Position numbers and translations under genes: made by a program. Positions 17,518 to 53,193 of a stretch of DNA of 64,000 nt are shown one piece after another. This stretch comes from Erythrobacter sp. (GTDB lineage: Bacteria > Pseudomonadota > Alphaproteobacteria > Sphingomonadales > Sphingomonadaceae), in contig DAICXZ010000032.1 of NCBI GenBank assembly GCA_027311945.1, positions 1 through 64,000 of the forward strand, read 5' to 3'. The notes under the pieces were generated by a model. That model searched no databases. It was not told the origin of the DNA and worked only from the letters and a program-made list of their open reading frames with translations. The first letter of the stretch is position 1. The number at the start of each line of letters is the position of its first letter.

Positions 17518-17606
17518 TGGCCTTGTGGCTTTTCGGCGTCTCATGGCCCTCCCGCCAAATTCGATTTTTTGGCACGAAATTTCAAGGCAAGAGGCACACC
17601 TCCCCT

Positions 17607-21776
<4,170 letters not shown>

Positions 21777-21849: not shown

Positions 21850-26142
<4,293 letters not shown>

Positions 26143-28124: not shown

Positions 28125-28180
28125 TTCGCAGGCGCAGCGCAAAGAGGGTTGTAAGAGCCAGCGCATAGGCTATGTGGGCG

Positions 28181-28197
28181 ATGTTATAGCATCACAT
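28181..28197. promoter_or_regulatory. candidate Zur box
   Basis: ATGTTAT-AGC-ATCACAT is a seven-three-seven inverted repeat with one mismatch. It fits the zinc-uptake-regulator consensus of proteobacteria (TGTTATANNATAACA type) and lies 19 bases before the start of the TonB receptor with metal-binding-like loops. Confidence 0.65.
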
Positions 28198-28215
28198 AAA
28201 GCCAAGCGAGATCCC

Positions 28216-37708: not shown

Positions 37709-38398
37709 CTAATCGATGTGCATTGCGCGATCGAGCCCGGCGAGGAACCGATGGCCGTTTTCGACATGCCGCCTCATGGCCAACTCGGCTGCATCTGCAT
37801 CGCCAGCGGAAATGGCCTCCATGATCAGGCGGTGGTCTGCAACTGCCTCGTGCAGGCGGTCGCCGCGGTAGAACGTGCCGAACAGCAAGTGATGAACAGG
37901 GGTGCTCAGCCGCTTGACCAGATCCTCGATCACCGTGTTGCCCGCCCCGCGCATCAGCAGCATGTGCCATTGGGCGTTCAACCCGCTGAACTTTTCGGGC
38001 GAGCTGCTGTCGATGCAGGCCTCCATCTCATTGGCCAGACGGGCGAGCTTTTCCCGGTCTGCATCGCTGGCGCGCCTGCAGAAGTCGCGCGCGCAGAGCC
38101 CCTCGAGAAGCGCGCGTGCCTGATAGAGCTGGCGGACCTCGTCCGGGCTGGCGCTGCGCACTGAAGCCCCTCGAAATTCTTCGATGTCGACCAGCCCCTC
38201 GGCCGCCAGACGCTGGAATGCTTCGCGCACCTTGAAGCGACTGCCGCCGGTCTGGCGAATGATGTCGACCTCCACCAGGCGCTGGCCGGGCACCAGCCTG
38301 CTGCTGCGGATTTGGGCGCGAATCCAGTCAGCGATCTCGGCGCTGCTCGGCGCAGCCTTGGAAAGCGAGCGGACCAGCTCTTCAGGATGAGTGGGCAT
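37709..38398 (-). CDS. GntR-family (FCD) transcriptional regulator
   Basis: A 229-residue DNA-binding repressor or activator of the FadR branch of GntR. Residues about 15-80 form the winged helix (EIADWIRAQIRSSRLVPGQRLVEVDIIRQTGGSRFKVREAFQRLAAEGLV), and the rest is an all-helical FCD ligand domain with the usual metal-binding-like histidines (NAQWHMLL, ADHRLIMEAI, MRRHVENG). It faces the TonB receptor and the uptake/CoA operon across a 133-base region that contains an inverted repeat of the FadR type. It most likely controls that operon in response to an acid or CoA-ester. An upstream extension through the operator is rejected. Confidence 0.92.
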   Translation of the reverse strand: MPTHPEELVRSLSKAAPSSAEIADWIRAQIRSSRLVPGQRLVEVDIIRQTGGSRFKVREAFQRLAAEGLVDIEEFRGASVRSASPDEVRQLYQARALLEGLCARDFCRRASDADREKLARLANEMEACIDSSSPEKFSGLNAQWHMLLMRGAGNTVIEDLVKRLSTPVHHLLFGTFYRGDRLHEAVADHRLIMEAISAGDADAAELAMRRHVENGHRFLAGLDRAMHID

Positions 38399-38409
38399 CG
38401 GATTACCTG

Positions 38410-38429
38410 CGAAATTGTCAACAATTTCG
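38410..38429. promoter_or_regulatory. candidate operator for the GntR/FCD regulator
   Basis: A perfect nine-two-nine inverted repeat, CGAAATTGT-CA-ACAATTTCG, between the regulator start (12 bases away) and the divergent TonB receptor. Its core TTGT-N2-ACAA fits the FadR-subfamily pattern of two half sites around a short centre. Binding would repress the regulator and could control the receptor operon. Confidence 0.7.
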
Positions 38430-38531
38430 TCAGTGATAATTCGATTGCTCTCGCTCGTCAAATTTACCACCCAACTATCAACACAGGCCTCGTTCAAAAG
38501 AGGCTGGGGCAAGGGAAGGGATGTTTGCAAG

Positions 38532-41216
38532 ATGGCAAGACTACACTCGAGGTCCACCGCGATCGGTCACTACGCGTCGGTTTCGCTGGCTGTGCTGGCG
38601 GCCTGCCTGTCTGCTCCGGCCTTCGGCCAGGACGCGGCAGCGGACGAAAGCCCGGAGAACCGGATCGTTGTTACCGGCAGCCGCGTGAGCACGGGCGATG
38701 CGCCTGTCGGTGCCACGGCGACGGTGCTTGGCCGCGATGCCATCGTCCAGTCGGGCGCGGCAACGATCGACCGCGTGATCAAGGAGCTTCCGCAGAACTT
38801 CGACCTCGGCGTGTCGGAGAACTCGCGCGGTCAGGCCGGCGGCTCGGGCAACATCACCTATGGCAACACGGTCAACCTGCGCGGGATCGGGCCTTACGCG
38901 ACACTGGTGCTGATCGATGGGCACCGGGTGGTCAACAACAGCCGCTCTACCGATCCTTCGGTCCTGCCCACGCTGGGCGTGGAACGGGTCGAGGTCGTCG
39001 CCAACGGGGCCTCTGCGATCTACGGTTCGGACGCTGTGGCGGGTGTGGTCAACCTGATCCCGCGCCGCAGTCTCGACGGGATCGAGGGCTTTGCGCGCTA
39101 TAACGCCGCCGAAGACGGTGCCTTCGACGAATGGGCCGCGGGTGTAGCCGTCGGCAAGGTGTTCGACCGGGGGCAGGTTATGCTTGCCTACGAACACGTA
39201 TCCCGCAGCAACCTTTCGGGTGACGACCGCGACTTCTTCACTTCCGACCAGCGGCCCTTCGGCGGTGCGGACTATCGCACCAGTCGCTGTGCGCCCGGCA
39301 CACTGGTGATCGGCACCACCACCTATGCCCTGCCTGACCAGTACACGCAGGCCAATGCCGACGCGATCACTGCGGGAACGGCAAGCCTGTGCGACAATCT
39401 CGTGGGGCAGGATCTGTTTCCGCAGCAGTCATACGATTCGGTGAACGGGACGGCCTCCTTCGAGGTGACCGACTGGGCCGAACTTTTCTTCGACGGCTTC
39501 TATTCGCGGCGCGAGTTCGTGCGCCAGGGCGCGGTGCCGACAACGCGCCTGAACGTGCCCGAGACCAATGCGTTTTTCGTGCGCCCCACCGGCTTTACCG
39601 GCAGCAGCTATTCGATCGACTACAGCTTCGTCGGCGATATCCCGCTGGTGAAGACCGAAGGCTATGCCGAGAGCTGGCAGGTTTCGCCCGGCGTGCGCTT
39701 CAAACTGCCGTTCGAATGGGAACTCGAAGCGCTTGTCGCCTATGGCGAGACCAGCGACTTCTCCGGCTCCTACGATGGCACCAACAACGCCGCGCTTGCC
39801 GCCGCGCTCGCCAGCAGCGATCCGGCGACGGCCTTCGATCCCTACGGGCTTGGCCGCACGAGCGATGCGGTTATCGCTGGTATCTTCGACCAGATATTCC
39901 TCGCCCCGACCAACGGCGAGCTGACCTTCTACGAAGTCGGCGCCAGCGGTCCGCTGTTCGAATTGCCGGGCGGGGAAGTGCGCATGGCGGTCGGCTACGA
40001 GCGGCAGGAGTTTGGCGTTGCCCTTGGCTCCGCCCGTGGCGCGCCGACCTCGGAGGTCCGCTTCCGCAACTTCGATCGCAAGGTGGATTCCGGCTATGCC
40101 GAACTTCTGGTGCCGGTCTTCGGTCCGGGCAATGCGACGAGCGGCTTCGAAGAGCTCGAGCTGACCGCCGCCATCCGTCACGACAAGTATTCGGACGTTG
40201 GCAACACCACCAATCCGCAATTCGGCGTGAACTGGGTGCCGGTCGACGGGATCAAGCTGCGCGGCAGCTATGGCACCGCCTTCCGCGCGCCGACGATCCC
40301 CGAGATTTATGGCAACTCGAACAACCTGTTCGTGCAGAACTACCAGAACCCGGCCGGTGGGCCGACGATTACCGGCGTGGCCCTGTCTGGCCCGAACCTC
40401 GATCTTGGCCCGGAAACCGCGACCACCTGGTCGATCGGCGCCGACATCGAACCGGTCGACCGGCTGCGGCTTTCGATCACCTATTTCGATGTCCAGTATG
40501 ACAATCAGGTCAGCGCGAACCTCTCGAACCTCACGATTCTGGGGCAGGAAAGCCAGTTTGCCGGCACTGGCGTGGTGCTGCGCGATCAGGACGCGCGCGA
40601 TCAGGTCAATGCGTTGATCGCTTCGGGCGTGAACGTGATCGGCGCGCTGCCGGGCGGCAGTGTCGATAACCTCACCTTGTTCGTGGACGGTCGATCGCGC
40701 AATCTTGGGATCTCCACCACGCGCGGGTTCGATCTTGCCGCGAACTACATCGCCGACATCGGTGCGAATGATGTGCTGACGCTGACCGCCTCGGCCACCT
40801 ACCTCACCGAATACAAGGTGGCTGTCGCGCCGGCTGCTGACGAGATCGACCAGCTCAACCTGATCTTCCAGCCTCTCAGGTTCAAGGCGCGCGTCGCTGC
40901 AAACTGGGATCACGGCCCGATCTCTGCGCGTGTCGCAGCCACCCATGTGGGAGGCTATACCAACAACCTGATCACACCTGCCGAGCAGGTCTCCTCGTTC
41001 ACTCCGGTCGATTTCGGGCTGACCTGGCGGGTGAGCGATACCTTCAGCGGCGGGATCGATAACTTCGAACTCACCGCCGAGGTGCGCAACCTGTTCGATG
41101 CCGATCCGCCCTATGTTAATCTGGCTCCGGGCGGCAACGGCAGCGGCGGGTACGACGCGACCGTAGGCAACCCGATCGGGCGGCAGTTCTCGATCGGCGC
41201 GCGTATCCGCTTGTAA
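38532..41216 (+). CDS. TonB-dependent receptor of the catabolic island
   Basis: Outer-membrane importer, 894 residues, with a long signal peptide ending AFGQ, a TonB-box-like segment (NRIVVTGSR), a plug domain (about 40-165, with TVNLRGIGPYATLVLIDGHRVV and VERVEVVANGASAIYGSDAVAGVVNLI) and a barrel ending IGARIRL. It is of the large sphingomonad/Caulobacter type that imports plant, algal or aromatic compounds; the substrate cannot be read. It starts the operon: the CapA-like gene begins 28 bases after its stop. The start chosen gives a plausible signal peptide; an earlier ATG overlaps the operator. Confidence 0.88.
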   Translation: MARLHSRSTAIGHYASVSLAVLAACLSAPAFGQDAAADESPENRIVVTGSRVSTGDAPVGATATVLGRDAIVQSGAATIDRVIKELPQNFDLGVSENSRGQAGGSGNITYGNTVNLRGIGPYATLVLIDGHRVVNNSRSTDPSVLPTLGVERVEVVANGASAIYGSDAVAGVVNLIPRRSLDGIEGFARYNAAEDGAFDEWAAGVAVGKVFDRGQVMLAYEHVSRSNLSGDDRDFFTSDQRPFGGADYRTSRCAPGTLVIGTTTYALPDQYTQANADAITAGTASLCDNLVGQDLFPQQSYDSVNGTASFEVTDWAELFFDGFYSRREFVRQGAVPTTRLNVPETNAFFVRPTGFTGSSYSIDYSFVGDIPLVKTEGYAESWQVSPGVRFKLPFEWELEALVAYGETSDFSGSYDGTNNAALAAALASSDPATAFDPYGLGRTSDAVIAGIFDQIFLAPTNGELTFYEVGASGPLFELPGGEVRMAVGYERQEFGVALGSARGAPTSEVRFRNFDRKVDSGYAELLVPVFGPGNATSGFEELELTAAIRHDKYSDVGNTTNPQFGVNWVPVDGIKLRGSYGTAFRAPTIPEIYGNSNNLFVQNYQNPAGGPTITGVALSGPNLDLGPETATTWSIGADIEPVDRLRLSITYFDVQYDNQVSANLSNLTILGQESQFAGTGVVLRDQDARDQVNALIASGVNVIGALPGGSVDNLTLFVDGRSRNLGISTTRGFDLAANYIADIGANDVLTLTASATYLTEYKVAVAPAADEIDQLNLIFQPLRFKARVAANWDHGPISARVAATHVGGYTNNLITPAEQVSSFTPVDFGLTWRVSDTFSGGIDNFELTAEVRNLFDADPPYVNLAPGGNGSGGYDATVGNPIGRQFSIGARIRL

Positions 41217-41244: not shown

Positions 41245-42357
41245 ATGGCTGATGCGACGATAGAGCTGACGGTAACCGGCGACATGGTTCTCGATGAACC
41301 CGATGCCGGTTACTGGCTATCGGGTATCGCCCCGGTCTTGCGTGCGTCCGATCTTGCCATCGCTCATCTGGAGGTGCCGCACACCGCCAGTCATGACGAA
41401 CTGGAGGGCGATGTTCCTGCACCGGGTGCGCCGCCCGAAAACCTTGCCGCATTGGCCGCAGCCGGAGTGGGCATGGTCTCGCTGGCGGGAAACCACATGG
41501 CCGATTGCGGGGCACAAGGCATTGCCGACACCGTCGCGGGCCTCGATGCCCATGGCGTGCGGCACACGGGCGCCGGGCTGGACCTTGCCGCCGCGCGCCG
41601 TGCAGCTGTTGCATCGGTCAAGGGGCGGCGCATCGCACTTCTGAGCTACAATTGCGTCGGGCCCGAGGCGAGTTGGGCGAGCGAGAGCGAGAGCGGGTGC
41701 GCCTACCTTCCGATGGGAACCGCCGATGGCTCGCCAGTGACACCGCAGAAGGATATCGTGAGCGTGCTTCCCGGCGCTCGGGAAATCCTGGCGCAGGACA
41801 TTGCTGCTGCAAGGGAGCAGGCCGACATCGTGCTGGTCGCCATGCACAAGGGGCTGGTGCACAGGCCTGCGGTTCTGGCTCCTTACGAGCGTCCCGTTGC
41901 GCAGGCGGCGATCGATCTGGGTGCAGATGCAGTGATCGCGCACCACGCGCACATCGTGAAGGGCATCGAGTTTTACTGCGGCAAGCCGATCTTTCACGGG
42001 CTCGGCAATGGCTGCGTGGTGACCTCGGCGCTGTCGCCCGATCAGGATCATCCCGCGCGGGCCGACTGGGCGCACCGGCGCAAGGCCATGTTCGGGTTCG
42101 AGCCCGACCCGGCCTATCGGCTGGCGCCGTTTCACCCTGAGGCAATCAACGCCTTCATGGGGCGTCTGCTTATCGACAAGCATGGCGGCATCGTGGTTGG
42201 GATCATTCCGGTCCACGTGGAGGCACCGGGCCGCCCGGTGCTTGCAGATGCTGCCCGTGGGCGGGAGATTGCCGCCTATGTGGAAAAGATCACCTGCGAG
42301 GCGGGGCTACCGGTGATCACCATAGACGAAGATTACACCGTTAGGGCAGCAGCATGA
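41245..42357 (+). CDS. CapA-family metallophosphatase-like protein
   Basis: A 370-residue protein of the CapA/PgsA family, a branch of the calcineurin-like metallophosphatase fold named after poly-gamma-glutamate synthesis. The expected motifs are present: TGDMVLD (12-17), IAHLEVPH (usually N-L-E), SLAGNHMADCG, LVAMHKG and AVIAHHAHIVKGIE. No signal peptide or membrane helix is visible, unlike in capsule-linked members, so it is probably cytosolic. Its place as first of eight overlapping genes with TRAP transporter and CoA-transferase genes suggests a catabolic hydrolase, not capsule synthesis. This is inference. Confidence 0.82.
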   Translation: MADATIELTVTGDMVLDEPDAGYWLSGIAPVLRASDLAIAHLEVPHTASHDELEGDVPAPGAPPENLAALAAAGVGMVSLAGNHMADCGAQGIADTVAGLDAHGVRHTGAGLDLAAARRAAVASVKGRRIALLSYNCVGPEASWASESESGCAYLPMGTADGSPVTPQKDIVSVLPGAREILAQDIAAAREQADIVLVAMHKGLVHRPAVLAPYERPVAQAAIDLGADAVIAHHAHIVKGIEFYCGKPIFHGLGNGCVVTSALSPDQDHPARADWAHRRKAMFGFEPDPAYRLAPFHPEAINAFMGRLLIDKHGGIVVGIIPVHVEAPGRPVLADAARGREIAAYVEKITCEAGLPVITIDEDYTVRAAA

Positions 42358-42845
42358 GCTTGGCGATGAGGATGATTGTTTTGATCGGAGGCTTCGCCCT
42401 CCTTGCGGCCACAGCGGTGGATACGCTTGCCGTAATCGGGCGCCATGTCGGCCTGCCCATACCGGGCTCGATTGAAATGATGCAGGCAATCGTGCTGGTT
42501 TCGGGCATTGTCGCCATACTGGTCGCCACGATCGAGAGCCGCCACGCCCGGGTCAAGCTGGTGGTGAACCGCCTGCCGCCACACCTGCGCGTGTTGGCCG
42601 ATCGGCTGTCCGATCTGCTGACGTTTCTTTTCATTGCCGCACTTCTCGTCGGCTCAGGCTGGATCGCCTGGGATTTGCGCGACGCTCACGAACAGAGCGA
42701 GTTGCTGGGCATTCCATGGATGGCCCTTCGCATCATCGCCGGGGTGGTGCTGGTTACCTGCTGCTGCGTTCTTGGCAGCCGCGTGATTTCTCCGCAGCGC
42801 CGGGCCGGGCGCGCAGATGACGCTGCGGCGGTGCACGGCGAATGA
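42354..42845 (+). CDS. TRAP transporter small permease (DctQ)
   Basis: Small membrane subunit of a tripartite ATP-independent periplasmic transporter, 163 residues with four helices (about 5-30, 42-60, 84-104, 120-140). The first loop carries IPGSIEMMQAIVLVSGIVAIL, typical of DctQ. It works with the DctM-type permease encoded next and the binding lipoprotein at 48376. Its ATG overlaps the CapA-like stop by four bases, and its own stop overlaps the next start in the same way. Confidence 0.88.
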   Translation: MSLAMRMIVLIGGFALLAATAVDTLAVIGRHVGLPIPGSIEMMQAIVLVSGIVAILVATIESRHARVKLVVNRLPPHLRVLADRLSDLLTFLFIAALLVGSGWIAWDLRDAHEQSELLGIPWMALRIIAGVVLVTCCCVLGSRVISPQRRAGRADDAAAVHGE

Positions 42846-44149
42846 TTTACGCAACGGCGGCAACCGGCCTGATCGGCATTCTTGTCTTGCTCGCGCTCCT
42901 GCTGCTGGGGGCGAGAATTGGCGTGGCACTGGGCTTGGTGGGGTTGGGCGGGCTGGCGCTGATCCTCGGCCCCGAGGCCGCGCTGATCAAGGGCGGCGTG
43001 GTGGTGATCGAGACGCTCACCAAATACGAACTCGGCACCCTGCCGCTGTTCCTGTTCATGGCGCACATCTTCTTCTCGATCGACGCCAGCCGTGATCTGT
43101 TCGATGCAGCGGCCAAGATGATCGGCCATCGGCGCGGCGGCCTGGCCTATGCCGGTGTGGCGGGCTGCGCCGGGTTTGGCGCGATCAACGGGTCGAGCCT
43201 GGCCACCACGGCAACAGTCGGGCTGGTTGCCTATCCGGAAATGAAGCGGCGCGGCTATGACGATACCATTGCCACCGGCAGCATCGCGGCTGGCGGTACG
43301 CTCGGCCAGATGATCCCGCCGTCGGGTGCGCTGATCGTGTTCGGCATCATTGCCGAAACCAGCATCGGCAGCCTGTTCACAGCGGCCATCATCCCCGGCA
43401 TTACGCAGGCGCTGTTCTACGCGGCGGTGATCTTCCTGCTGGTGCGGTGGAAGCCGGGCATCGCTCCGGCGACCGAGCGCACCCCATGGCCGGAGCGGCT
43501 GCGGTCGCTCGGGCGGATATGGGAGATCGTGCTGCTGATCGCCTTTGTGATTGGGGGCATTGCGGCCGGGATCATCAGCCCGCCCGAAGCTGCGGCGGTC
43601 GGTGCCTCCGGCGCGCTGCTGATTGCCGCCTTGCGCCGCAAGCTGACCCGCGCCACGCTGTTCGCGGCTTTCCATGAGACGCTGCGTACGAGCGGCCTGA
43701 TCTACCTCATCATCGTTGGCGCGCTGGTCTTCTCGGTGTTCGTCGGGGTGACTGGCCTTGCCGATGGCGCCGGGGCACTGGTCGAGGCAACCGGGCTCGG
43801 GCCTGTCGGCACGCTCTTGCTGCTTGCACTGATCCTGCTGTTGCTCGGTTCGGTGCTGGATGGGTTGGCGCTTATGCTGCTGACCACACCGATCCTGCTG
43901 CCAATCGTCGAGGCGCAGGGCCTGAGCGCGATCTGGTTCGGCATTTTCATCACCCGCGCGATGGAGATCGGCTTTGTCCATCCGCCGCTCGGGCTCAACC
44001 TTTACATCATTCAGGGCGTGGCGAAGGATGTCTCGATTTCGAAGATCTTTCGCGGCGTGCTGCCCTTTCTGGCGAGCGATTTCGTGCATCTCCTCCTGAT
44101 TATCCTGTTTCCCGCGATGGTCCTCTGGCTGCCGGAGGTGCTGGCGTGA
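42842..44149 (+). CDS. TRAP transporter large permease (DctM)
   Basis: Main transport subunit of the TRAP system, using the Na+ gradient to import a carboxylate. The 435-residue protein has about twelve helices. Family segments are PLFLFMAHIFFSIDASRDLFDAA, GAINGSSLATTATVGLVAYPEM, GGTLGQMIPPSGALIVFGIIAETSIG and the C-terminal VHPPLGLNLYIIQGVAKDVS. The gene overlaps both neighbours by four bases (ATGA before, GTGA after). Confidence 0.93.
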   Translation: MIYATAATGLIGILVLLALLLLGARIGVALGLVGLGGLALILGPEAALIKGGVVVIETLTKYELGTLPLFLFMAHIFFSIDASRDLFDAAAKMIGHRRGGLAYAGVAGCAGFGAINGSSLATTATVGLVAYPEMKRRGYDDTIATGSIAAGGTLGQMIPPSGALIVFGIIAETSIGSLFTAAIIPGITQALFYAAVIFLLVRWKPGIAPATERTPWPERLRSLGRIWEIVLLIAFVIGGIAAGIISPPEAAAVGASGALLIAALRRKLTRATLFAAFHETLRTSGLIYLIIVGALVFSVFVGVTGLADGAGALVEATGLGPVGTLLLLALILLLLGSVLDGLALMLLTTPILLPIVEAQGLSAIWFGIFITRAMEIGFVHPPLGLNLYIIQGVAKDVSISKIFRGVLPFLASDFVHLLLIILFPAMVLWLPEVLA

Positions 44150-45012
44150 TTGCCTCGGTCGGACCCAATCTCCCGCTGGCGGTGCTGCGCGCTTCGGGTG
44201 CCTATGCTGGATCGCTGCCTGTCGATCTCGGCAAGAAGGTGACCGGGGCGAGCGCCTGGATGGAAAGCAAGTTTGCGCCCTGGGCACCGCTTGCGCTGCA
44301 GGCCTGGGCAGACGGCGACTATGATCACCTCGACCGCGTAGTTTTCAGCCGCGCCGACGACACGGCGCAGCGCTTCTACTACTATGTCTGCGAATTGCAG
44401 CGGCGCGGGCTGGTCGGCGGGCCGGAGGCGGTGATGTTCGATCTGGCGATGATCCCGCGCCAGAGCAGCCTTGAGCGCACGGAGCAAAAGGTCAGGGAAC
44501 TGGCGGATCTGCTTGGTGTGAGCGAAGCCGCCATAGATGAGGCGATATCGCCCGCGCCCGCTCCCACTGCCCCCGCCGATCGCCCGCTCTGCCTGATCGC
44601 CGGCTCGCCGCTACCCGATCGCCGCCTGCACCGGGCGGTGGAGAGCGCAGGCTTTGCCGCCGCCGGGCAAACGCTGGCCGATTACTGGGGCGAGGAGGCG
44701 GGCGCGGTCGAGCGCGGCACCGGCAATCCTTGCGCTGCCATTGCCCGTGCCTTGCACGCCAGCACCAGCGGCCCGCGCAGCTTCGCTGATCGTTCGGCCC
44801 TGCTGGCAGAGCGCCTTTCACAATCGGCAGCCAAGGCCGCGATCCTGTGGCGCATCGAGGAGGACGAAGCCCAGGTGTGGCATCTGCCAGCCGAGCGGCG
44901 CGTTCTGGAAGAGAGCGGCGTACCGCACCTCGTGCTGACCCGGCGCGACTGGTTCGCCGAGGATGGAGCGGTCGAGGAAACCTCCCGCTTCCTTGCAGAG
45001 GTTAAGACATGA
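44146..45012 (+). CDS. short 2-hydroxyacyl-CoA dehydratase-like (HgdB-family) protein
   Basis: A 288-residue relative of the D-component (HgdB/FldC/BcrB type) of 2-hydroxyacyl-CoA dehydratases and benzoyl-CoA reductases. The N-terminal match is best: VVFSRADDTAQRFYYYVCELQRRG, and the end GVPHLVLTRRDWF resembles the usual GIPxLxLExD. It is about 90-130 residues shorter than characterised members, and the cysteines that hold the iron-sulfur cluster are not all recognisable (candidates C67-like VCEL, PLCLIAG and GNPCAAIA). It may be a structural partner of the longer protein at 47093. Start is GTG, overlapping dctM by four bases. Confidence 0.7.
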   Translation: MIASVGPNLPLAVLRASGAYAGSLPVDLGKKVTGASAWMESKFAPWAPLALQAWADGDYDHLDRVVFSRADDTAQRFYYYVCELQRRGLVGGPEAVMFDLAMIPRQSSLERTEQKVRELADLLGVSEAAIDEAISPAPAPTAPADRPLCLIAGSPLPDRRLHRAVESAGFAAAGQTLADYWGEEAGAVERGTGNPCAAIARALHASTSGPRSFADRSALLAERLSQSAAKAAILWRIEEDEAQVWHLPAERRVLEESGVPHLVLTRRDWFAEDGAVEETSRFLAEVKT

Positions 45013-47096
45013 AACCACTTTTCGGACACAGTGTCGCCGTGCTTGGCGACATGGCCGAGCGCCCGCTGGCGCGCTATCTCTCCTCGCTTGGCGCAACGCT
45101 TGATGGCGAGGTGGAAAGCGCCAGCTTCGTGATCGACGATCTCGGGTTGGAGGCCACTGCGCACCTGCCGATCCCTGCCAGCGCGGTGCATGTCTCTGTC
45201 ACCCCGTTCGGCTCTGGCGGACCGCGCTCGCACTGGAAGGGCGGGGAACTGGTCGCCTCGGCCATGGGCGGCGCACTGCGGCTTACCGGCGAGCCGGGTG
45301 AGAAGCCGGTCAAGGAGGCGGGCGATGCCTGCACCTTCCATGCCGATATGGTCGCCGGCGCCGGGGCCATGGCTGCGCACTATGCGCGCGGAACGCATGG
45401 TATGGGGCAGCATGTCGATGTGTCGATCCAGCAGGTCGTCATGAGCCGCAATGTCAACGGTGTGCTGGTGTGGCAGTTCGACCGCAAGAAGCTCGACCGT
45501 GCAGGCGGCTGCATCGCTTATGGCCGCGCCAAGGTGCAGGTGATCTGGCGGCTGGCTGACGGCTGGTGCTTCCACGCTTTGATGACCGGGCGGCTGGGCG
45601 CGCCTGCCAACAAGGCGCTGTCCGACTGGATGGACGAAGCGGGCATCGACAACCCGATGCGCGAGGTCGACTGGCTGGCCTACAACCGCTCTACGCTGCC
45701 CGCCGAAACGCGCGCCCGGTGGGAAGCGGCCATGGCGGCGTTCTTCGCTGGCAAGACCAAGCACGAGATCGCCACCGAAGGCCGCCAGCGCGGGATCAAC
45801 GCCTGCGTTGTCAATGAACCCGCCGATGTTCTGGCCGACGAACACCTCAAGGCGCGCGGCTTTCTCGACACGGCGACTGGCCTGCCCGAACGCTTTGCAG
45901 CCATTAGCGAAGGCGCAGCGCGGATCGAACCGCCAGCCATTCATGCGGGCGAGCGGCCGGGGCCGCTGTCGGGGGTGAAGGTGCTCGATTTCGCCTGGGC
46001 GCTGGTCGGGTCGATCACCACCAAGACGCTGGGCGACATGGGCGCCGAGGTGGTGAAGATCGAAAGCCGGGGCCGCCCGGATCTTTCACGCCTCGATGTG
46101 CAGGTGTCCGCCTCCAGCGCCGCAAGTCTCGATGACAAGCCGTGGTTTGCCCATCTCAACTCCTCGAAGAAATCGCTGACGCTCAACCTCAAGGCAGAGG
46201 GTGCGCGCGAGGTGCTCGACCCCCTGATCGACTGGGCCGACGTGGTGGTCGAGAACTTCTCGCCCGGCACCATGGCGCGGCTCGGCCTTGGCTATGACAG
46301 CCTTGCCGCGCGCAATCCGGGCGTGGTGATGGTGTCGGGCAGCGTGTTCGGCCAGACCGGCCCGCTGGCGCAGGAATGGGGCGTCGATGGCACCGGCGGC
46401 GCGCTTTCGGGGCGGACCTTCCTCACCGGCTATCCCGATGGCCATCCGGTGATCCCCGGCGCTGTGCCTTATGGCGATGTGATCGTGCCGTTCGTGATGG
46501 CGGGCCATGTCGCGGCCGCGCTGCAAGCCCGCCGCGAGACGGGGCGGGGCTGCCATATCGATGCCAGCATGTACGAAATCTGCGTCCAGCAGATGCGCGA
46601 CTTCCTCGCCCGTGCGAAGGCTGGCGAACGGCCGCAGCGGCTTGGCAATGCCGATCCCTCGGTGCTGTTCCAGGATGTCTTTCCTGCGGCTGGCCACGAT
46701 CGCTGGGTGGCGATCAGCGTCTTCACCGAAGAGGAAAAGGCGCGGCTGCTGGCAATCACAGGCCCGGATATTGCCGCCTGGACCTCGCAGCGAACCGATC
46801 ACGCAATCGCTGCAGAGTTGCAGCAGGCGGGGATTGCCGCGGGCGCCTTGCAGGATTGCGAAGACCTGATGGGCAACGATCCGCAGATCGCCTCCCGCGC
46901 GGCGCTGGTCACGCTTGATCATGCGGTCCTCGGCCCGTTCGGGCACGTCGCCACACCGCTCGCCTTTTCGCGCGACGCGATGCAGCCCTTCCGCGCGCCG
47001 AGCATGGGCGAACATGCGCATGAAGTTGCGCGCACCATTTCGGGGCTGAGCGAAGAGCGCGTGGACGAACTGGAAGCAATGGGAGTGTTCAAGTGA
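45009..47096 (+). CDS. fused double-domain family III CoA-transferase (CaiB/BaiF)
   Basis: A 695-residue enzyme with two CaiB/BaiF units in one chain. Family III enzymes move CoA between carboxylates through an aspartyl-CoA intermediate. Each unit has a candidate catalytic aspartate in the usual setting: D137 in GMGQHVDVSI and D518 in GRGCHIDASM. The second unit (about 320-695) is complete, with SGVKVLDFAWALVG, DMGAEVVKIES and VVVENFSPGTMARLGLGYD. The first lacks a normal N-terminal Rossmann part and is shorter. It overlaps both HgdB-like genes by four bases and should supply or recycle their CoA-ester. Confidence 0.9.
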   Translation: MKPLFGHSVAVLGDMAERPLARYLSSLGATLDGEVESASFVIDDLGLEATAHLPIPASAVHVSVTPFGSGGPRSHWKGGELVASAMGGALRLTGEPGEKPVKEAGDACTFHADMVAGAGAMAAHYARGTHGMGQHVDVSIQQVVMSRNVNGVLVWQFDRKKLDRAGGCIAYGRAKVQVIWRLADGWCFHALMTGRLGAPANKALSDWMDEAGIDNPMREVDWLAYNRSTLPAETRARWEAAMAAFFAGKTKHEIATEGRQRGINACVVNEPADVLADEHLKARGFLDTATGLPERFAAISEGAARIEPPAIHAGERPGPLSGVKVLDFAWALVGSITTKTLGDMGAEVVKIESRGRPDLSRLDVQVSASSAASLDDKPWFAHLNSSKKSLTLNLKAEGAREVLDPLIDWADVVVENFSPGTMARLGLGYDSLAARNPGVVMVSGSVFGQTGPLAQEWGVDGTGGALSGRTFLTGYPDGHPVIPGAVPYGDVIVPFVMAGHVAAALQARRETGRGCHIDASMYEICVQQMRDFLARAKAGERPQRLGNADPSVLFQDVFPAAGHDRWVAISVFTEEEKARLLAITGPDIAAWTSQRTDHAIAAELQQAGIAAGALQDCEDLMGNDPQIASRAALVTLDHAVLGPFGHVATPLAFSRDAMQPFRAPSMGEHAHEVARTISGLSEERVDELEAMGVFK

Positions 47097-48379
47097 GTAC
47101 GTCGGCCAACCAGCGCAGCCGCAAGACGCTCGCCTGCACCTCGGAGGCGACCGCCTACCAGAAGGCTTTCGGGCAAGAGCTGCGCCGCCGCGTGGTCGAG
47201 GATCGCGAGCCCTATGCCATCGTGCAGGCCGACACGCCGCACGAGCTGTTTCACGCGATGGACATTCCGATCATCACCAACCAGTGGTGGTCGGCCTATA
47301 TCTCGGCCAAGCAGCTTTCGAGCCGTTACTTCGACGCGATGGTCGAGAAGGGCTATCCGGCCAACAGCTGCAAATATTGCTCGCTCGGGCTTGCCTGCAC
47401 GCTTGCCAACGATCCCGAAACCGCGCCCTGGGGCGGCCTGCCGACACCCACGATCATGGTCGCGCGGCTGACCTGCGACTGCATTCAGCACGTGTTCGGG
47501 CAATGGGCCGATGCGCTGGACAGCGAGTTTTTCCCGATGGAAGCCCCCGCCTGGACCGACAAGGACCCGCAGTGGTTTGAACACGCCAAGAGCGACTGGG
47601 AGCGGGTCTATCAGCCCGATCGCATCGCGCTGATGGTGCGAGAAATGGCCGATCTGATCGCCGTCCTCGAAAGCCGTACGGGCCGCAAGTTCGACGAGGC
47701 GAAGTTCCATCACCTGATGGAACAGATCAACGTGCAGGAAGGCTATATCTGGGAAGCGGCGCAGGCGATCGGGGCCGCGCGTCCTTGTCCGGTGTCGATT
47801 GCCGAGCAGATGCCCAACACAATGATCCCGCAATGGCATCGCGGCTCGGACTGGGCGGTCGCCCACGCCAAGAAGTTCCGCGACGAGGTGCTGGGCCGGA
47901 TCGATGCCGGGCTGGGGGCATCGAGCAACGAGAAGCTGCGGCTGATGTGGATCGGCGCTGGCGTTTGGCACGATCCGGGCTTCTATCAGGCGCTGGAGGA
48001 AGATCCCGGTGCGGTCTTCGTCTGGTCGATGTACATGCCCTTTGCCGGGCCGGCCTACATCCGCGATCTCAAGGGCAAGCCGATGGAGGCGCTGGCCAGC
48101 CGCATCGCCAGCATGAACGAGACGCTGCACTTGCCGCCGTGGATGAGCGGCTGGATGGTCTCTGAGGCGAAGCGCTGCGGGATCGATGCAGCGATCATGC
48201 TGCTGCCGCCAGACAACCGTCTCTCGCAGTCGGGCAACAAGCTGACCGCCAGCGCGCTGGAAGAGGCCGGGGTGCCGGTGCTGATGATCGATGCCGACAT
48301 GGTCGATGCGAAGATCTGGGATCATGACCGGATGGTCGGCATGGTCGCGCAGTTCCTTGACGACCGGGGTCTGGCATGA
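47093..48379 (+). CDS. 2-hydroxyacyl-CoA dehydratase-like (HgdB-family) protein
   Basis: A 428-residue full-length member of the HgdA/HgdB/FldB/BcrB family, whose known members bind one [4Fe-4S] cluster and eliminate water from 2-hydroxyacyl-CoA after a one-electron activation. Seen here are SCKYCSLGLACTL (C93, C96, C102) and LTCDCIQHVFGQWADALDSEFFPMEAP (C128 in the typical TCD, C130). In the C-terminal part, where a third ligand cysteine is usual before a GIPxLxIExD motif, the protein reads LPPDNRLSQSGNKL then AGVPVLMIDAD, so that ligand seems lost. The activity is therefore uncertain. Start is GTG with GTGA overlap. Confidence 0.8.
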   Translation: MSTSANQRSRKTLACTSEATAYQKAFGQELRRRVVEDREPYAIVQADTPHELFHAMDIPIITNQWWSAYISAKQLSSRYFDAMVEKGYPANSCKYCSLGLACTLANDPETAPWGGLPTPTIMVARLTCDCIQHVFGQWADALDSEFFPMEAPAWTDKDPQWFEHAKSDWERVYQPDRIALMVREMADLIAVLESRTGRKFDEAKFHHLMEQINVQEGYIWEAAQAIGAARPCPVSIAEQMPNTMIPQWHRGSDWAVAHAKKFRDEVLGRIDAGLGASSNEKLRLMWIGAGVWHDPGFYQALEEDPGAVFVWSMYMPFAGPAYIRDLKGKPMEALASRIASMNETLHLPPWMSGWMVSEAKRCGIDAAIMLLPPDNRLSQSGNKLTASALEEAGVPVLMIDADMVDAKIWDHDRMVGMVAQFLDDRGLA

Positions 48380-49410
48380 GGGCGATTGCCCCCGTTCTGG
48401 CAGCGCTTGCGATGCTGGTCGGCTGCGCGCGTCCTCTGCCCGAGGACGTGACCGAGCTGACCTATGCCACGCCCTATCCCCCCTCGCACCCGTTCAGCCA
48501 GGCCGACCAGCGGTGGATGGACTATGTCAAGCGCGAAAGCGGCGGCAAGCTGCTCATCCGGCCGATCTGGTCGGGCGCATTGCTCTCTGCCGATATGTCG
48601 ATGGAGGAACTGCGCCACGGGGTCGCCGACATCGGCCTGATCACGCCGATCTATGTGCGCGGCGGCACCCATCTGCTCCGCACCCAGACCGGCTTCTATT
48701 CCGGCGCCGATTCGATCGAAAGCCAGACCGCGCTTTATCGCTGCATGGCCGAGCGGATCCCGCAGTTCTCCAACGAGCTGGAGGGATTGGAAGTGCTGGC
48801 GCTGCAAGGCGGATTGCTGCCCGGCATCGTGACCCGTAGCCGCAAGGTAGAGAGCCTCGAGGATCTCAAGGGCTTGCGGATCCGCGCGCCCACCGAATTG
48901 CTCGGCGTGCTGGGCGATCTTGGCGCGGACCCGGTCAACATGCCGATGGGCGAGGTCTATTCCGCCATGGCCAAGGGCGTGATCGACGGCGTGATCGCGC
49001 CGCCCGACACCTTCCGCGCTCTGCACCTGACCGAGGTGGCCGAGTACTACTACGAGCTGAAAGTTCCGCGCGGGGCCTATCCGTCGCGGGCCATGGGGAA
49101 AGAGCGCTGGGAGGCGCTGAGCGCTGCCGATCGCGAATTGCTCGAGCGCAGCAAGCCGGTGTGGGAAGCGGCTCTGGCCGAGGAAATCCGCAAGTCCGAA
49201 CAGGTCGGTCGCGACGCTGCGGCAGGCATCATTGCCGCGTCGCCGGTGAGCGAAGCCGATCAGGCGCATTTCGACGAGATTTACCTGCGCGATGGCGAGG
49301 CGAATGCGCGCAGGCTCGCGCGCTTCGGCATTGATGGCATTGAGGCATACCGCGTGGCCCGCGCCAGCATTGTCGCGCGCGACCAGATACGATGTGAAGG
49401 GAAAAGTTGA
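48376..49410 (+). CDS. TRAP transporter substrate-binding lipoprotein (DctP)
   Basis: Extracytoplasmic solute receptor of the TRAP system, 344 residues. The signal ends in a lipobox (MLVGC, Cys17), so the protein should be lipid-anchored, unlike the soluble receptors of most TRAP systems. DctP-family features are LTYATPYPPSHPFSQADQRWMDYVKRESGGKL, LRHGVADIGLITP, LKGLRIRAPTELLGVLGDLGADPVNMPMGEVYSAMAKGVIDG, with the conserved arginine that grips a carboxylate. It is separated from the permease genes by the CoA genes yet translationally coupled with them. Confidence 0.88.
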   Translation: MRAIAPVLAALAMLVGCARPLPEDVTELTYATPYPPSHPFSQADQRWMDYVKRESGGKLLIRPIWSGALLSADMSMEELRHGVADIGLITPIYVRGGTHLLRTQTGFYSGADSIESQTALYRCMAERIPQFSNELEGLEVLALQGGLLPGIVTRSRKVESLEDLKGLRIRAPTELLGVLGDLGADPVNMPMGEVYSAMAKGVIDGVIAPPDTFRALHLTEVAEYYYELKVPRGAYPSRAMGKERWEALSAADRELLERSKPVWEAALAEEIRKSEQVGRDAAAGIIAASPVSEADQAHFDEIYLRDGEANARRLARFGIDGIEAYRVARASIVARDQIRCEGKS

Positions 49411-50582
49411 TGACGCAACCGCTGGCCGGTTTCCGGGTGGCCGACTTCAGCCATGTGATGGCTGGCCCCTTCGCCAGCCATCTGCTGCGGCTGATGGGCG
49501 CCGAGGTTATCAAGATCGAATCGAAGCGCGGCGACCAGTTCCGCAACTACGGCTCCAACCGCGAGTTCGACGGGATGAGCCCCGCCTTCATTGCCGCCAA
49601 TGTCGGCAAGAAGAGCATTGCGCTCGACCTCAAGGACCCCGCCGACAAGGAGATTGCACGCCGCATCGTGGCGAAGAGCGACGTGCTGCTGGAGAACTTC
49701 CGTCCCGGCGTCATCGGTCGGCTCGGTTTCGGCTACGGCGAGGTGCGCAAGGATAACCCCGGCATCGTGTTCTGTTCGGTCAGCGGCTATGGGCAGGACA
49801 GCCCCCAGCGCGACTGGCCCGCGATCGACAACATCGTGCAGGCCACCAGCGGCATGATGATGCTGAGCGGGGCCGAAGGCGATCCGCCGGTGCGTGTGGG
49901 CTTTCCCATGGTTGATACGCTCACCGGCCAGACCGCTGCCGTCGCCATCCTGGGCGCGTTGCTGCGGCGTGAACGATCGGGCGAGGGCTCTTTCATCGAT
50001 GTCTCGATGCTCGACGCCTCGATGGCCTTCATGACCAGTGCGCTTACACCGTTTCTCGTTACCGGAGAGGCGCTTAAGCGGCTGGGCAACACCGGCTACA
50101 GCGAATTGCCAACCGCCGGGCTGTTCGAAACTGCCGACGATCGGCACGTCTCGCTTGGCGTGGTGCAGGAAAACCAGTTCGCGGCGCTCGCCCGCTTTCT
50201 CGGCCGCGAAGACTGGCTGGACGATGCGAGGTTCGCCACCCCCGATGCGCGCCGCGCCAACTTCGATGCCATGCACGGCCAGCTGGCGCAGATATTCCGT
50301 ACCCGCAAGGCCGAGGAATGGGAGCGCGAGCTGAGCGAAGTCGGTATTCCCTGCGGCATGGTCCGCCGGGTTGATGAGGCTGCCGCGCTGGGTGGTCCGG
50401 GCGCCTTGCTCGACATCGAGATTCCCGGCCTGCCGGTGCCCGGCAAGGTCGCGGTGCCTAACGCCGGTTTCCGCATGACGCCCGATGGCCCCGGCACCGA
50501 TGCGCCGCCGCCGCGGGTGGATCAGGATCGCGACGAAATCCTGGCCTGGCTCGAACGCGAAGAGAGCACCGAACAGGCCTGA
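49410..50582 (+). CDS. family III CoA-transferase (CaiB/BaiF), single domain
   Basis: A 390-residue CoA-transferase of normal length. Features are LAGFRVADFSHVMAGPFASHLLRLMGAEVIKIE at the start, DVLLENFRPGVIGRLGFGYGEV, SVSGYGQDSP and the candidate catalytic aspartate D197 in GSFIDVSMLD. The ATG at 49410 shares one base with the preceding TGA; a TTG codon directly before it is a possible alternative. The product probably activates the imported acid, while the fused transferase handles the dehydrated product, or the reverse; the order is unknown. Confidence 0.93.
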   Translation: MTQPLAGFRVADFSHVMAGPFASHLLRLMGAEVIKIESKRGDQFRNYGSNREFDGMSPAFIAANVGKKSIALDLKDPADKEIARRIVAKSDVLLENFRPGVIGRLGFGYGEVRKDNPGIVFCSVSGYGQDSPQRDWPAIDNIVQATSGMMMLSGAEGDPPVRVGFPMVDTLTGQTAAVAILGALLRRERSGEGSFIDVSMLDASMAFMTSALTPFLVTGEALKRLGNTGYSELPTAGLFETADDRHVSLGVVQENQFAALARFLGREDWLDDARFATPDARRANFDAMHGQLAQIFRTRKAEEWERELSEVGIPCGMVRRVDEAAALGGPGALLDIEIPGLPVPGKVAVPNAGFRMTPDGPGTDAPPPRVDQDRDEILAWLEREESTEQA

Positions 50583-50607: not shown

Positions 50608-53193
50608 ATGCCATTTGTACCCTTGCGCACCGCAATCGCCGCTCTGGCTTGTACGGCTCTCACGCTGCCCGCACTGGCGCATGACTATCCGGGCTACGAG
50701 CGCCAGTCGCTCTATGTCCCGGTGCGCGACGGGACACGGCTGGCGATGAACGTCTATCGCCCGGCCGATGCCGATGGCGTGGAGACAGAGCGGCTGCCGG
50801 TGATCTTCGTATTCACGCCCTATCGCGCGCGGTTTGTCGATGCCGATGGCGAGGTGCAGGAAGTGGCACTGGACGACGACCTTGCGCTGCGCAGCCTGTT
50901 GCGGGCTGGCTATGTCGTCGCCGTGGCCGATATTCGCGGCAAGGGTGCCAGCTTCGGTGCGCGGCGCGGTTTTCAGGATCGAACCGAGGCGCAGGACGGG
51001 CACGATCTTGTCCAGTGGCTTGCGCAGCAGCCATGGTCTAGCGGCGACGTCGGCATGGTCGGCTGTTCCTATCTCGGCGGCACCACCACCCATGTGGCAA
51101 GCACTGCGCCGCCCGCTCTGAAGGCGATCTTCACCGGCGCAACCGACTGGGACAAATACGAATTTGTGCGGCGCGGCGGCATCACAGCGCAGTTCAACAC
51201 CCGACCGGACGAGGATCTGTCGGTCGATCTGGCCAGCGTGCCGGTCGATGCCGATCCCGAGGGCGCGCTGTTGCGTGAAGCGGTGGCCATGCATGCCGAC
51301 AATACGCCGATGGCCGGCCTGTGGTACGGGATGCCTTATCGCGACAGCGTGAGCGAGTTCACCGGCAATGCCTTCTGGGACGAGGTGGCAATCTGGAAAT
51401 ATGCCCAGACCATCCGCGAAGCGGGGATCGCCACTTACATGTGGAGCAACTGGAAGGACGAGCCGACCAGCCATATCATCGTTGCCGCCCAGAATCTCGA
51501 TAGCCGATTGCTGGTCGGCCCCGGCAGCCATTGCGTGCCGCCGCCGGGTTTCGACTTTACCGGCGAGATCACCCGCTACTTCGACTATCATCTGAAGGGC
51601 ATCGAGAATGGCTTCGGCCAGGCGCCGCGCGTCACCTACTATCGCGACGAGGGCGACGGCGAGGGCAGCTATGTCACGAGCGACCAGCTGCCCGGCGCAG
51701 CAAGCGAGACGCTAAGCTACTATCTCGGCGCGGATGGGGGCAATGTGCTCGGCGCGCATCCGGTGGGCAGCGGCAGTGCTGGCTTTGCCGTCGATTACGA
51801 TGTCGCCGACGATGCCTATTTCGCTTTCTGGCCCCCCTCGCTCGACGGGCACGGCGTTACCTTTGACAGCGCACCTGCCAGCGAGGCGTTCGACCTGCTC
51901 GGCTATCCGGTAGCGAACATTTCGGTGAGCGCCGACCGGCCCGATGCCGATGTGTTCGTCTATCTGGAGGACGTAGCTGCTGACGGGGAGGTCGAAGTGC
52001 TCTCGTTCGGGCGGCTCAAGCTCTCGCATCGCAAGGTTTCGCAAGCGCCGTGGGATACGCTCGGGATGCCGTGGCATTCGGGCCGTGAGGCTGACGTGGC
52101 GCCGCTGAGCGAGGGTGAACCGGCGATGCTGTCGATCGCCATGATGCCGCTGTCGCATCGCGTGATGCCGGGCCACCGGCTCCGCTTCCTCGTGACCGGC
52201 GCCGATCCGCGCCAGCGCAACCTCGCCGACCTGGTGCAAGACCCGGCTCCGCGAATTTCGGTGCACTATGGTTGGGACGCGGCTTCGCGCATCGACTTGC
52301 CGCTGGCGCGGCATTCCGCAGCGATGCTGCCGCGGCAAATCGGTGGTGCAGCGGGCAGCGGAGACTGGCCTGCGATTGCGCAGGAACTTGCCGGCGCGGA
52401 AGGGTACACCGTCTATCGGCCGCTCAGGCTGCCCGATGCGCCGATGCCTGTCGTGCTCTGGGGCAACGGGGGCTGCCGCGACAACGGCCTCAGCGCCAGC
52501 CATTTCCTGCGCGAGATCGCCAGCCACGGGTATCTGGTCATTGCCAATGGCAAGCCGGGTGAAGAGCGCCCGGTCGCGGCCGAGCTGCCGCCTGCGCCGC
52601 CGCCGCTTGACGGCCCGCCTCCGCCGCCGTCCGATCGCCCCGCCGACGAGACCAGCGTCGCCGGGATGCTGGCAGGGATCGACCTTGCCCTGGCGATGAA
52701 CGCCGACCCGCAAGACCCGCTGCACGGCGCAATCGACCCTGACCGCATCGCCACGATGGGCCACAGCTGCGGAGGCCTTCAGGCCTTGGCCGCAGGAGCC
52801 GATCCCCGCATCGGCACGGTTATGGCGCTGGGCAGCGGGGTCTACAACCGTCCCAATTCCGGCCTGAGCGGTGTGCAAATCGGCAAGGACGACCTGCTCA
52901 AGCTGCACAGCCCGATGGCCTATGTCCTTGGTGGGCCTTCGGATATCGCCTGGGCCAACGGCAACGACGATTTTGCCCGTATCGAACATGTGCCGGTGGT
53001 GCTCGCAAGCCTGCCGGTTGGTCACGGCGGCACCTTTGCGCTCGAAAACGGCGGGCAGTGGGCGAAGTTCGCGGTGAACTGGCTGGATTGGCAGCTGCGC
53101 GCGGATGAGGAGGCGCAAACGGCCATCCTCAACGCCGAATGCCCGCTGTGCAGCGCCGAAGGCTGGACGATAAGCTCCAAAGGGTTCGAATAG
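50608..53193 (+). CDS. exported two-domain CocE/NonD-type hydrolase
   Basis: An 861-residue secreted hydrolase with signal peptide (MPFVPLRTAIAALACTALTLPALA). The N-terminal part is a CocE/NonD (S15 peptidase) alpha/beta-hydrolase with the nucleophile in GCSYLGG (S154) and a jelly-roll domain (about 390-580). A second alpha/beta-hydrolase domain follows (about 600-861), with nucleophile S720 in MGHSCGG and a Pro-rich loop ELPPAPPPLDGPPPPP inside it. The two together could cut two ester or amide bonds in the periplasm. It starts 26 bases after the CoA-transferase stop and belongs to the same operon. Typical CocE proteins end after the jelly roll. Confidence 0.85.
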   Translation: MPFVPLRTAIAALACTALTLPALAHDYPGYERQSLYVPVRDGTRLAMNVYRPADADGVETERLPVIFVFTPYRARFVDADGEVQEVALDDDLALRSLLRAGYVVAVADIRGKGASFGARRGFQDRTEAQDGHDLVQWLAQQPWSSGDVGMVGCSYLGGTTTHVASTAPPALKAIFTGATDWDKYEFVRRGGITAQFNTRPDEDLSVDLASVPVDADPEGALLREAVAMHADNTPMAGLWYGMPYRDSVSEFTGNAFWDEVAIWKYAQTIREAGIATYMWSNWKDEPTSHIIVAAQNLDSRLLVGPGSHCVPPPGFDFTGEITRYFDYHLKGIENGFGQAPRVTYYRDEGDGEGSYVTSDQLPGAASETLSYYLGADGGNVLGAHPVGSGSAGFAVDYDVADDAYFAFWPPSLDGHGVTFDSAPASEAFDLLGYPVANISVSADRPDADVFVYLEDVAADGEVEVLSFGRLKLSHRKVSQAPWDTLGMPWHSGREADVAPLSEGEPAMLSIAMMPLSHRVMPGHRLRFLVTGADPRQRNLADLVQDPAPRISVHYGWDAASRIDLPLARHSAAMLPRQIGGAAGSGDWPAIAQELAGAEGYTVYRPLRLPDAPMPVVLWGNGGCRDNGLSASHFLREIASHGYLVIANGKPGEERPVAAELPPAPPPLDGPPPPPSDRPADETSVAGMLAGIDLALAMNADPQDPLHGAIDPDRIATMGHSCGGLQALAAGADPRIGTVMALGSGVYNRPNSGLSGVQIGKDDLLKLHSPMAYVLGGPSDIAWANGNDDFARIEHVPVVLASLPVGHGGTFALENGGQWAKFAVNWLDWQLRADEEAQTAILNAECPLCSAEGWTISSKGFE

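Follow-up and report, generated by a model that had tools for sequence, protein, structure and literature searches.

What might a two-subunit protein of the 2-hydroxyacyl-coenzyme A (CoA) dehydratase (HGD-D) fold do without the machinery that defines its superfamily, which is known for very hard, highly oxygen-sensitive radical chemistry? The question is raised by an eight-gene operon (41245 to 50582, plus strand) in a 64,000-nucleotide stretch of Erythrobacter sp. DNA (assembly GCA_027311945.1, contig DAICXZ010000032.1, positions 1 to 64,000; the whole stretch is called the window), which encodes a putative pair of HGD-D subunits, HgdBs and HgdBL, together with a TRAP transporter, a CapA-like protein, and two family III CoA-transferase genes, CoaT2 and CoaT1 (HgdBs, HgdBL, CoaT1, and CoaT2 are names coined in this analysis). 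Here, we report that the pair probably does chemistry new to the HGD-D enzyme family. In our judgment, the odds are even that this branch of the superfamily has lost the activator driven by ATP, that several of its subgroups have lost the iron-sulphur cluster too, and that the branch now carries out an oxygen-tolerant acyl-CoA reaction, encoded in a catabolic operon that is widespread among aerobes but patchily distributed.

The HgdBs-HgdBL pair

HgdBL (47093 to 48379) matched Pfam HGD-D at 163 bits; HgdBs (44146 to 45012) scored 23.0 bits, under the cut-off of 28.4. No other HGD-D genes were detected in the genome. The predicted model of HgdBL, built from 49 sequences (predicted local distance difference test [pLDDT], 87), matched BzdO (8s02_A), MbdO (9g87_A), and HadB best in the PDB, along its full length (template modelling [TM] score, about 0.8; identity, 18 to 20%), so the proviso that such HgdB-like proteins might fall in a characterised family with another role found nothing in its favour. 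The HgdBs model (pLDDT, 92) matched HadC (3o3n_B), BzdN (8s02_B), and a double-cubane protein. By these predicted folds, the pair is therefore placed in the 2-hydroxyacyl-CoA dehydratase/benzoyl-CoA reductase superfamily as an alpha/beta couple, with HgdBL as the alpha-type subunit and HgdBs as a degenerate beta-type subunit. In six sister loci (L076 to L079, L087, and L126), both subunits are fused in one open reading frame (ORF) of 716 to 800 codons, which argues that they work together, likely as a heterodimer in the window. Sister groups mostly carry related gene sets, L127 being one exception.

When the genome collection was scanned once with HgdBL as the query, 65 loci were returned, with carriers including Erythrobacteraceae, Novosphingobium, Sphingobium, Sphingosinicella, Asticcacaulis, Parvularcula, Steroidobacter (Steroidobacteraceae), and unclassified gammaproteobacterial bins. 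Novosphingobium subterraneum and Asticcacaulis biprosthecium are carriers in culture.

The sequence-only reading had noted that the window holds no activator ATPase, and this absence was borne out and widened: PF01869 (activator ATPase family) had no match in the whole genome (99.95% complete), and the TIGR00241 activator model matched none of 19 genomes with a divergent-type pair, the window's own among them. TIGR00241 was also negative in all 43 named carrier genomes (which may share species with the 19) and, as a positive control, matched in 4/4 genomes with canonical pairs. A class-wide search detected HGD-D in 16 of 337 genomes, 12 of which have two high-scoring canonical-type genes side by side; because PF01869 proteins directly adjoin the pair in all 12, an activator of the known kind would probably have been detected if present. 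In two alphaproteobacterial genomes, one of them from the window's own family, a canonical HGD-D pair has an activator ATPase next to it (L080, 13254 to 16762; L088, 7636 to 11872); these pairs served as controls.

Searched with PF01869, the 43 carrier genomes (out of the 65 loci) gave matches in 14 at an E value of 0.001 and in 8 over the cut-off. The eight were rejected as activators: the only model fitted by the best match of each is that of N-acetylglucosamine kinase, with scores under its cut-off, and the motif C-A/S-A/S-G-T/S/C-G is found in no frame of these loci and is found at four canonical-pair loci. Matches in G556 (35.5 bits, over the cut-off) and in G637 and G778 (115 and 101 bits, distant from the pair) were rejected too, TIGR00241 being negative for each. 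Three more matches over the cut-off (one in G019 and two in G020) come from genomes in which TIGR00241 is likewise negative.

Cluster cysteines were compared with 13 canonical alpha rows (10 from the 12 canonical-pair genomes, the alpha rows of two not being extracted, and 3 from L080 and L088), all of which have the three cluster cysteines. Window-clade HgdBL has Cys at 93 and 128 in 66/66 rows; the third ligand position, 375, is occupied by Asn (60 rows) or Ser (5 rows) and is a gap in the remaining row, the window protein having N375. The clade has extra cysteines, C96 and C102 in all 66 rows and C130 in 65. None of the six fused sister proteins has Cys at any of the three canonical alpha positions, and L086, L127, and L128 have none there either. 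All three are kept in L125 (56% identical; TIGR00241 negative), which has Ala at 102; C102 could therefore be a substitute cluster ligand in the window clade, as judged from the alignment. The canonical protein L080a likewise has Cys at 102. In the beta subunit, the three canonical Cys positions are replaced in 10/10 divergent rows aligned, L125 included, and all three cysteines are present in 4/4 canonical rows; at HgdBs position 71, a canonical Cys, the 59 rows have Asp (53), Asn (4), or Glu (2).

A maximum-likelihood tree of 44 alpha rows separated 31 divergent from 13 canonical rows on a branch with support of 100/100, and two other branches each had a single group on one side, the window clade (97/88) or the fused group (100/100); L127 and L128 were left out, long end branches were flagged for L088b and L086, and eight rows had an odd letter make-up. 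Across 74 divergent rows, 96 of the 428 HgdBL positions are at least 97% conserved, and 36 of these 96 also carry the canonical majority letter. W65, W66, K73, W248, H249, W311, and Y322 are conserved in the divergent rows and are not canonical majority letters; R250, S312, and Y314 are conserved there and common to the canonical set. L128 deviates at N63.

Operon structure and conservation

The eight ORFs, on the plus strand, were confirmed at the coordinates read earlier, together with their overlaps at all seven junctions: ATGA at four, GTGA at two, and, between DctP and CoaT1, either TTGA (a 4-base overlap with a TTG start) or TGATG (a 1-base overlap; ATG start at 49410). Pfam assignments agree with the contents read earlier and are, in gene order, PGA_cap, DctQ, DctM, HGD-D (weak), CoA_transf_3, HGD-D, DctP, and CoA_transf_3. 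The coupled operon with a TRAP importer and CoA-transferases is thus upheld by junction overlaps and by Pfam and NCBIfam matches; in the earlier gene list the contents stood, and the first CoA-transferase gene proved to be two fused family III halves.

Gene order in relatives had been set beforehand as the refuting test, and it is kept: all eight genes lie in the window order in 41 of the 47 loci with enough flanking sequence, and the six-gene core from DctQ to DctP is found in 43 of the 47 (18 of the 65 loci were too short for gene order to be judged). The six exceptions are L033, L036, L042, L061, L062, and L065. At L033 and L062, several core genes were not found though HgdBL is recognisable, and these may be decaying or misassembled loci. 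L042 is labelled as a Klebsiella pneumoniae metagenome-assembled genome; its HgdBL (74% identity) has the gammaproteobacterial bin L047 as its tree neighbour, and the label may be wrong. At 16 loci, a gap of 0.5 to 2.5 kb lies between DctP and CoaT1, mostly holding a hydrolase part.

The 4-base stop-start overlaps of CoaT2/HgdBL (60/60 loci with both genes extracted) and HgdBL/DctP (59/59) are kept in relatives and so are not due to chance. The overlap of HgdBs/CoaT2 is found in 52/56 loci, that of DctM/HgdBs in 31/55, and that of DctP/CoaT1 in just 23/55.

The distribution of the operon is patchy. HgdBL was found in 11 of 246 genomes of the order (E value of 1e-30 or better), with carriers and non-carriers within one genus, in 17 of 199 genomes of the family (E value of 0.001; 11 of these at 78% identity or more, the window's own genome counted), and in 5 of 398 genomes of the phylum (E value of 1e-10).

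Proposed pathway and alternatives

On balance, we read the operon as a putative uptake-to-CoA-ester pathway in which hydrolases would release an acid outside and the HGD-D-fold pair would act on it with no radical chemistry driven by ATP. By the families present, exported CocE-type hydrolases would cleave an ester or amide before it reaches the cytoplasm, the compound would cross the outer membrane through the TonB receptor, and the liberated carboxylic acid would be imported by the TRAP transporter. CoA would be put on the acid, and taken back from the product so that it cycles, by one or both family III CoA-transferases, and the CoA ester would be bound in the HadB/BzdO-type cleft that the fold of HgdBs-HgdBL suggests. 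Since the known activator and the canonical cluster ligands are missing from the sequences, the pair would convert the ester without an ATP-driven one-electron step; the chemistry would probably be an acid-base elimination, hydration, or isomerisation via the clade-conserved W65, K73, W248, H249, W311, R250, S312, and Y314. A further possibility, hinted at by the likeness of CapA to MslH, is that CapA acts as an epimerase at the acid's alpha carbon.

Several points weigh against this pathway. With C93 and C128 kept, C96 and C102 invariant, and C130 in 65/66 rows, the window clade may yet bind a cluster and make use of it, as may L125, which has all three alpha cysteines and no TIGR00241 activator. 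An electron donor of another kind may escape homology searches. Sister groups may catalyse another reaction, and L127 deviates at supposedly catalytic and nearby positions (H249, N63, Q64, and W66), with WSRG in place of WHRG and AWY in place of QWW. That the host bacteria are aerobes is, moreover, our own presumption.

These points bear on the alternatives. Resemblance to the FldABC-type dehydratase, proposed in the sequence-only reading, was not supported: the activator is absent genome-wide, the small subunit lacks the cluster cysteines, the large subunit lacks the third, and sister groups lack all three. A 2-hydroxyacid dehydratase of the FldABC/HadABC type, making ketyl radicals with an electron from a non-homologous activator, is therefore unlikely in our view, even though the HGD-D fold and the family III CoA-transferase partners resemble those of FldABC/HadABC by analogy, C93 and C128 are kept in all 66 rows, and L125 keeps three alpha cysteines; set against it are the TIGR00241 results (0/19 divergent-type genomes; 0/43 named carriers), the third alpha ligand gone in the window clade, the beta ligands gone in 10/10 divergent rows, and the sister groups without canonical cysteines. 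Somewhat less doubtful, though still a minority possibility, is a window-clade enzyme with one remodelled iron-sulphur cluster (C93, C96, C102, C128, and C130) whose role, as in aconitase, would be that of a Lewis acid without redox function, the substrate being a hydroxyacyl-CoA. It would explain why C96 and C102 (66/66) and C130 (65/66) occur where the third canonical cysteine is gone, and why L125, with that cysteine, has Ala102; yet L086, L127, L128, and the fused group have much of the core in common without canonical-position cysteines, canonical L080a has Cys at 102 too, and such exposed clusters are usually oxygen sensitive.

Most improbable, to our minds, is a non-enzymatic pair serving the CoA-transferases as a CoA-ester-binding scaffold or sensor. 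The degenerate beta subunit, whose length varies from 288 to over 350 residues among relatives (with starts chosen here), would suit that role, but the alpha subunit is strongly conserved, at 77% mean column identity over 49 rows (loci that were themselves gathered by HgdBL) and at the 96 positions conserved in at least 97% of the 74 divergent rows, as would be expected of an active site.

Accompanying genes

CoaT2 (45009 to 47096) is a fused two-domain family III CoA-transferase, a BbsE-like half followed by a BbsF-like half by PDB matches: the best match of its N half is 9fn0_A (BbsE-like), and those of its C half are 10uh and 9fn0_B. D490 of the C half is found in 62/62 rows, aligned with the Asp of 10uh; the position of the N half aligned to the catalytic Asp is not Asp, as expected of a putative non-catalytic half judged from alignments. 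CoaT1 (49407 to 50582; CoA_transf_3, 360 bits) is single-domain, with 10uh and YfdE (4hl6) as its nearest solved structures, and has D170, at the position taken as catalytic, in 59/59 rows. The catalytic Asp is assigned by analogy with formyl-CoA transferase.

The TRAP transporter is complete by Pfam and NCBIfam matches: the small permease DctQ (42354 to 42845; Pfam DctQ), the large permease DctM (42842 to 44149; Pfam DctM, TIGR00786 above the cut-off), and the solute-binding protein DctP (48376 to 49410; Pfam DctP, TRAP_S1 at 63.2 bits against a cut-off of 50). DctP is probably a lipoprotein, judging from the lipobox LVGC read by eye, and its closest PDB entries are 4n6d, 5im2, 4nap, and 4pgn.

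The CapA-like metalloenzyme (41245 to 42357; PGA_cap, 183 bits) shows no signal peptide by eye, and among solved structures it lies closest to the lasso-peptide epimerase MslH (8gq9; E value, 7e-19). D13, E43, N83, H84, D87, H201, and H236 are invariant in 49/49 CapA rows. MslH is reported to be a Ca-dependent epimerase (PMC10406935), and of its eight catalytic or metal residues, six align with the same residue in CapA (the equivalents of E44, N87, H88, D91, H259, and H295), the equivalent of H261 is Gly203, and D11 falls outside the aligned stretch, with D13 as its likely equivalent. Six Novosphingobium loci (L018, L020, L021, L024, L025, and L063; about 14.4 to 18.0 kb) have a second CapA after the operon, 34 to 35% identical to the window CapA; at L018, L020, L021, and L025 it is accompanied by another CocE-type hydrolase and a TonB receptor. 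A 342-residue protein without a Pfam match lies nearby in several of them.

Upstream, the TonB-dependent receptor (38532 to 41216, plus strand; Pfam TonB_dep_Rec and Plug) ends 28 bases before CapA and may share one transcription unit with the CapA operon; its longest ORF runs from 38391, and a purine-rich stretch precedes the ATG at 38532. A GntR/FCD-type regulator (37709 to 38557, minus strand; Pfam GntR and FCD) is divergent to it, with an uncertain start that may lie inside the ORF; by a rough gene caller, a regulator-related ORF occurs in 18/71 loci, of which the one scanned is GntR/FCD. Downstream lies an exported hydrolase (50608 to 53193, plus strand; Pfam Peptidase_S15 and PepX_C, CocE_NonD above the cut-off), with a signal sequence read by eye; its CocE/NonD S15 domain is followed by a second alpha/beta-hydrolase-like part with a GHSCGG motif and sub-threshold Pfam matches only. 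The start at 50608 (25 bases past CoaT1, with a purine-rich stretch ahead) is more likely than the start at 50485 of the earlier gene list. Since relatives' loci show the two parts as distinct matches in 27/65 (more than 400 bases apart in 18) and as a single stretch in 5/65, the window's hydrolase is probably a fusion.

The placement of a TonB receptor before the operon and a hydrolase after it, as first read, held in part: 31 of the 44 loci with room for one have a TonB receptor whose end lies no more than 400 bases before CapA, and a CocE-type part is found in 44/65, but the receptor is not universal, being absent before CapA in 13 of the 44, the Steroidobacter and Asticcacaulis loci among them. 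Two more TonB-dependent receptors lie within the window at 28078 to 30384 and 53459 to 55936. The neighbouring ORFs at 17523 to 21776 and 21850 to 26142 (1417 and 1430 codons) would, by size only, presumably fit rpoB and rpoC.

As a hint only to the substrate, flanking genes were tallied from 100 ORFs, hand-picked among the 219 that a rough gene caller proposed and counted with no background frequency computed: FAD_binding_3 (6), MFS (6), Hydrolase_4 (5), Aldedh (4), P450 (4), Esterase (4), MmgE/PrpD (2), HgmA (1), and tannase (1). L048 is flanked by tannase and P450, L017 by an FAD monooxygenase and a glyoxalase-superfamily protein, and L043 by a sulfatase and esterases; L125 (11.7 to 16.9 kb) adjoins a VanA-type Rieske oxygenase, an aldehyde dehydrogenase, and an enoyl-CoA hydratase. 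That the imported acid would derive from an aromatic ester is a guess from these neighbours.

Comparison with known systems

The window pair has a two-subunit HGD-D fold in common with HadBC, FldBC, and HgdAB (the beta sequence score being under the Pfam cut-off), and the family III CoA-transferase partner and CoA-ester logic are also those of FldABC and HadABC. In contrast to HadBC, FldBC, and HgdAB, the window system has no detected activator ATPase, has no beta cluster ligands, and belongs to divergent clades in which the third or all alpha ligands are gone; its operon adds a fused CoA-transferase, CapA, and TRAP. Class I benzoyl-CoA reductases (BzdNO/PQ, MbdONPQ, and Bcr) provide the nearest solved folds to HgdBL (TM, about 0.8; 18 to 20% identity), whereas the window's genome has no P/Q-type ATPase (BcrAD, BzdPQ) and the canonical cysteines are incomplete or gone. 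The halves of CoaT2 match both subunits of the benzylsuccinate CoA-transferase BbsEF in order (9fn0_A, then 9fn0_B); CoaT2 is, however, a single fused chain, distant, with a C half slightly nearer to formyl-CoA transferase 10uh. Six residues are common to the window CapA and MslH, the H261 equivalent being Gly203, in motifs that may be general to PGA_cap proteins. Pathways of the DddD, CaiB, and FldA type couple a CoA-transferase to a lyase, which allows CoA to be recycled, and the window operon may be analogous to them; the presumed lyase in the window has the HGD-D fold and no detected activator.

The locus had been put forward as an undescribed system, and no description of the operon or of an activator-free HGD-D family was found among the literature matches listed (titles and abstract starts, with most subscription papers and all bioRxiv preprints outside the scope). 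A branch that keeps the fold and the CoA-transferase partners without the machinery would be an example of how a scaffold of this kind can be put to new use, and the fold alone is insufficient for naming such genes "2-hydroxyacyl-CoA dehydratase" or "benzoyl-CoA reductase." Given the series of states (three, two, or no canonical cysteines; split or fused subunits), the question can be put directly to the test on a small number of purified proteins. Compared with these systems, the scaffold is already known; the loss of the defining machinery and the conserved operon appear new within the literature searched.

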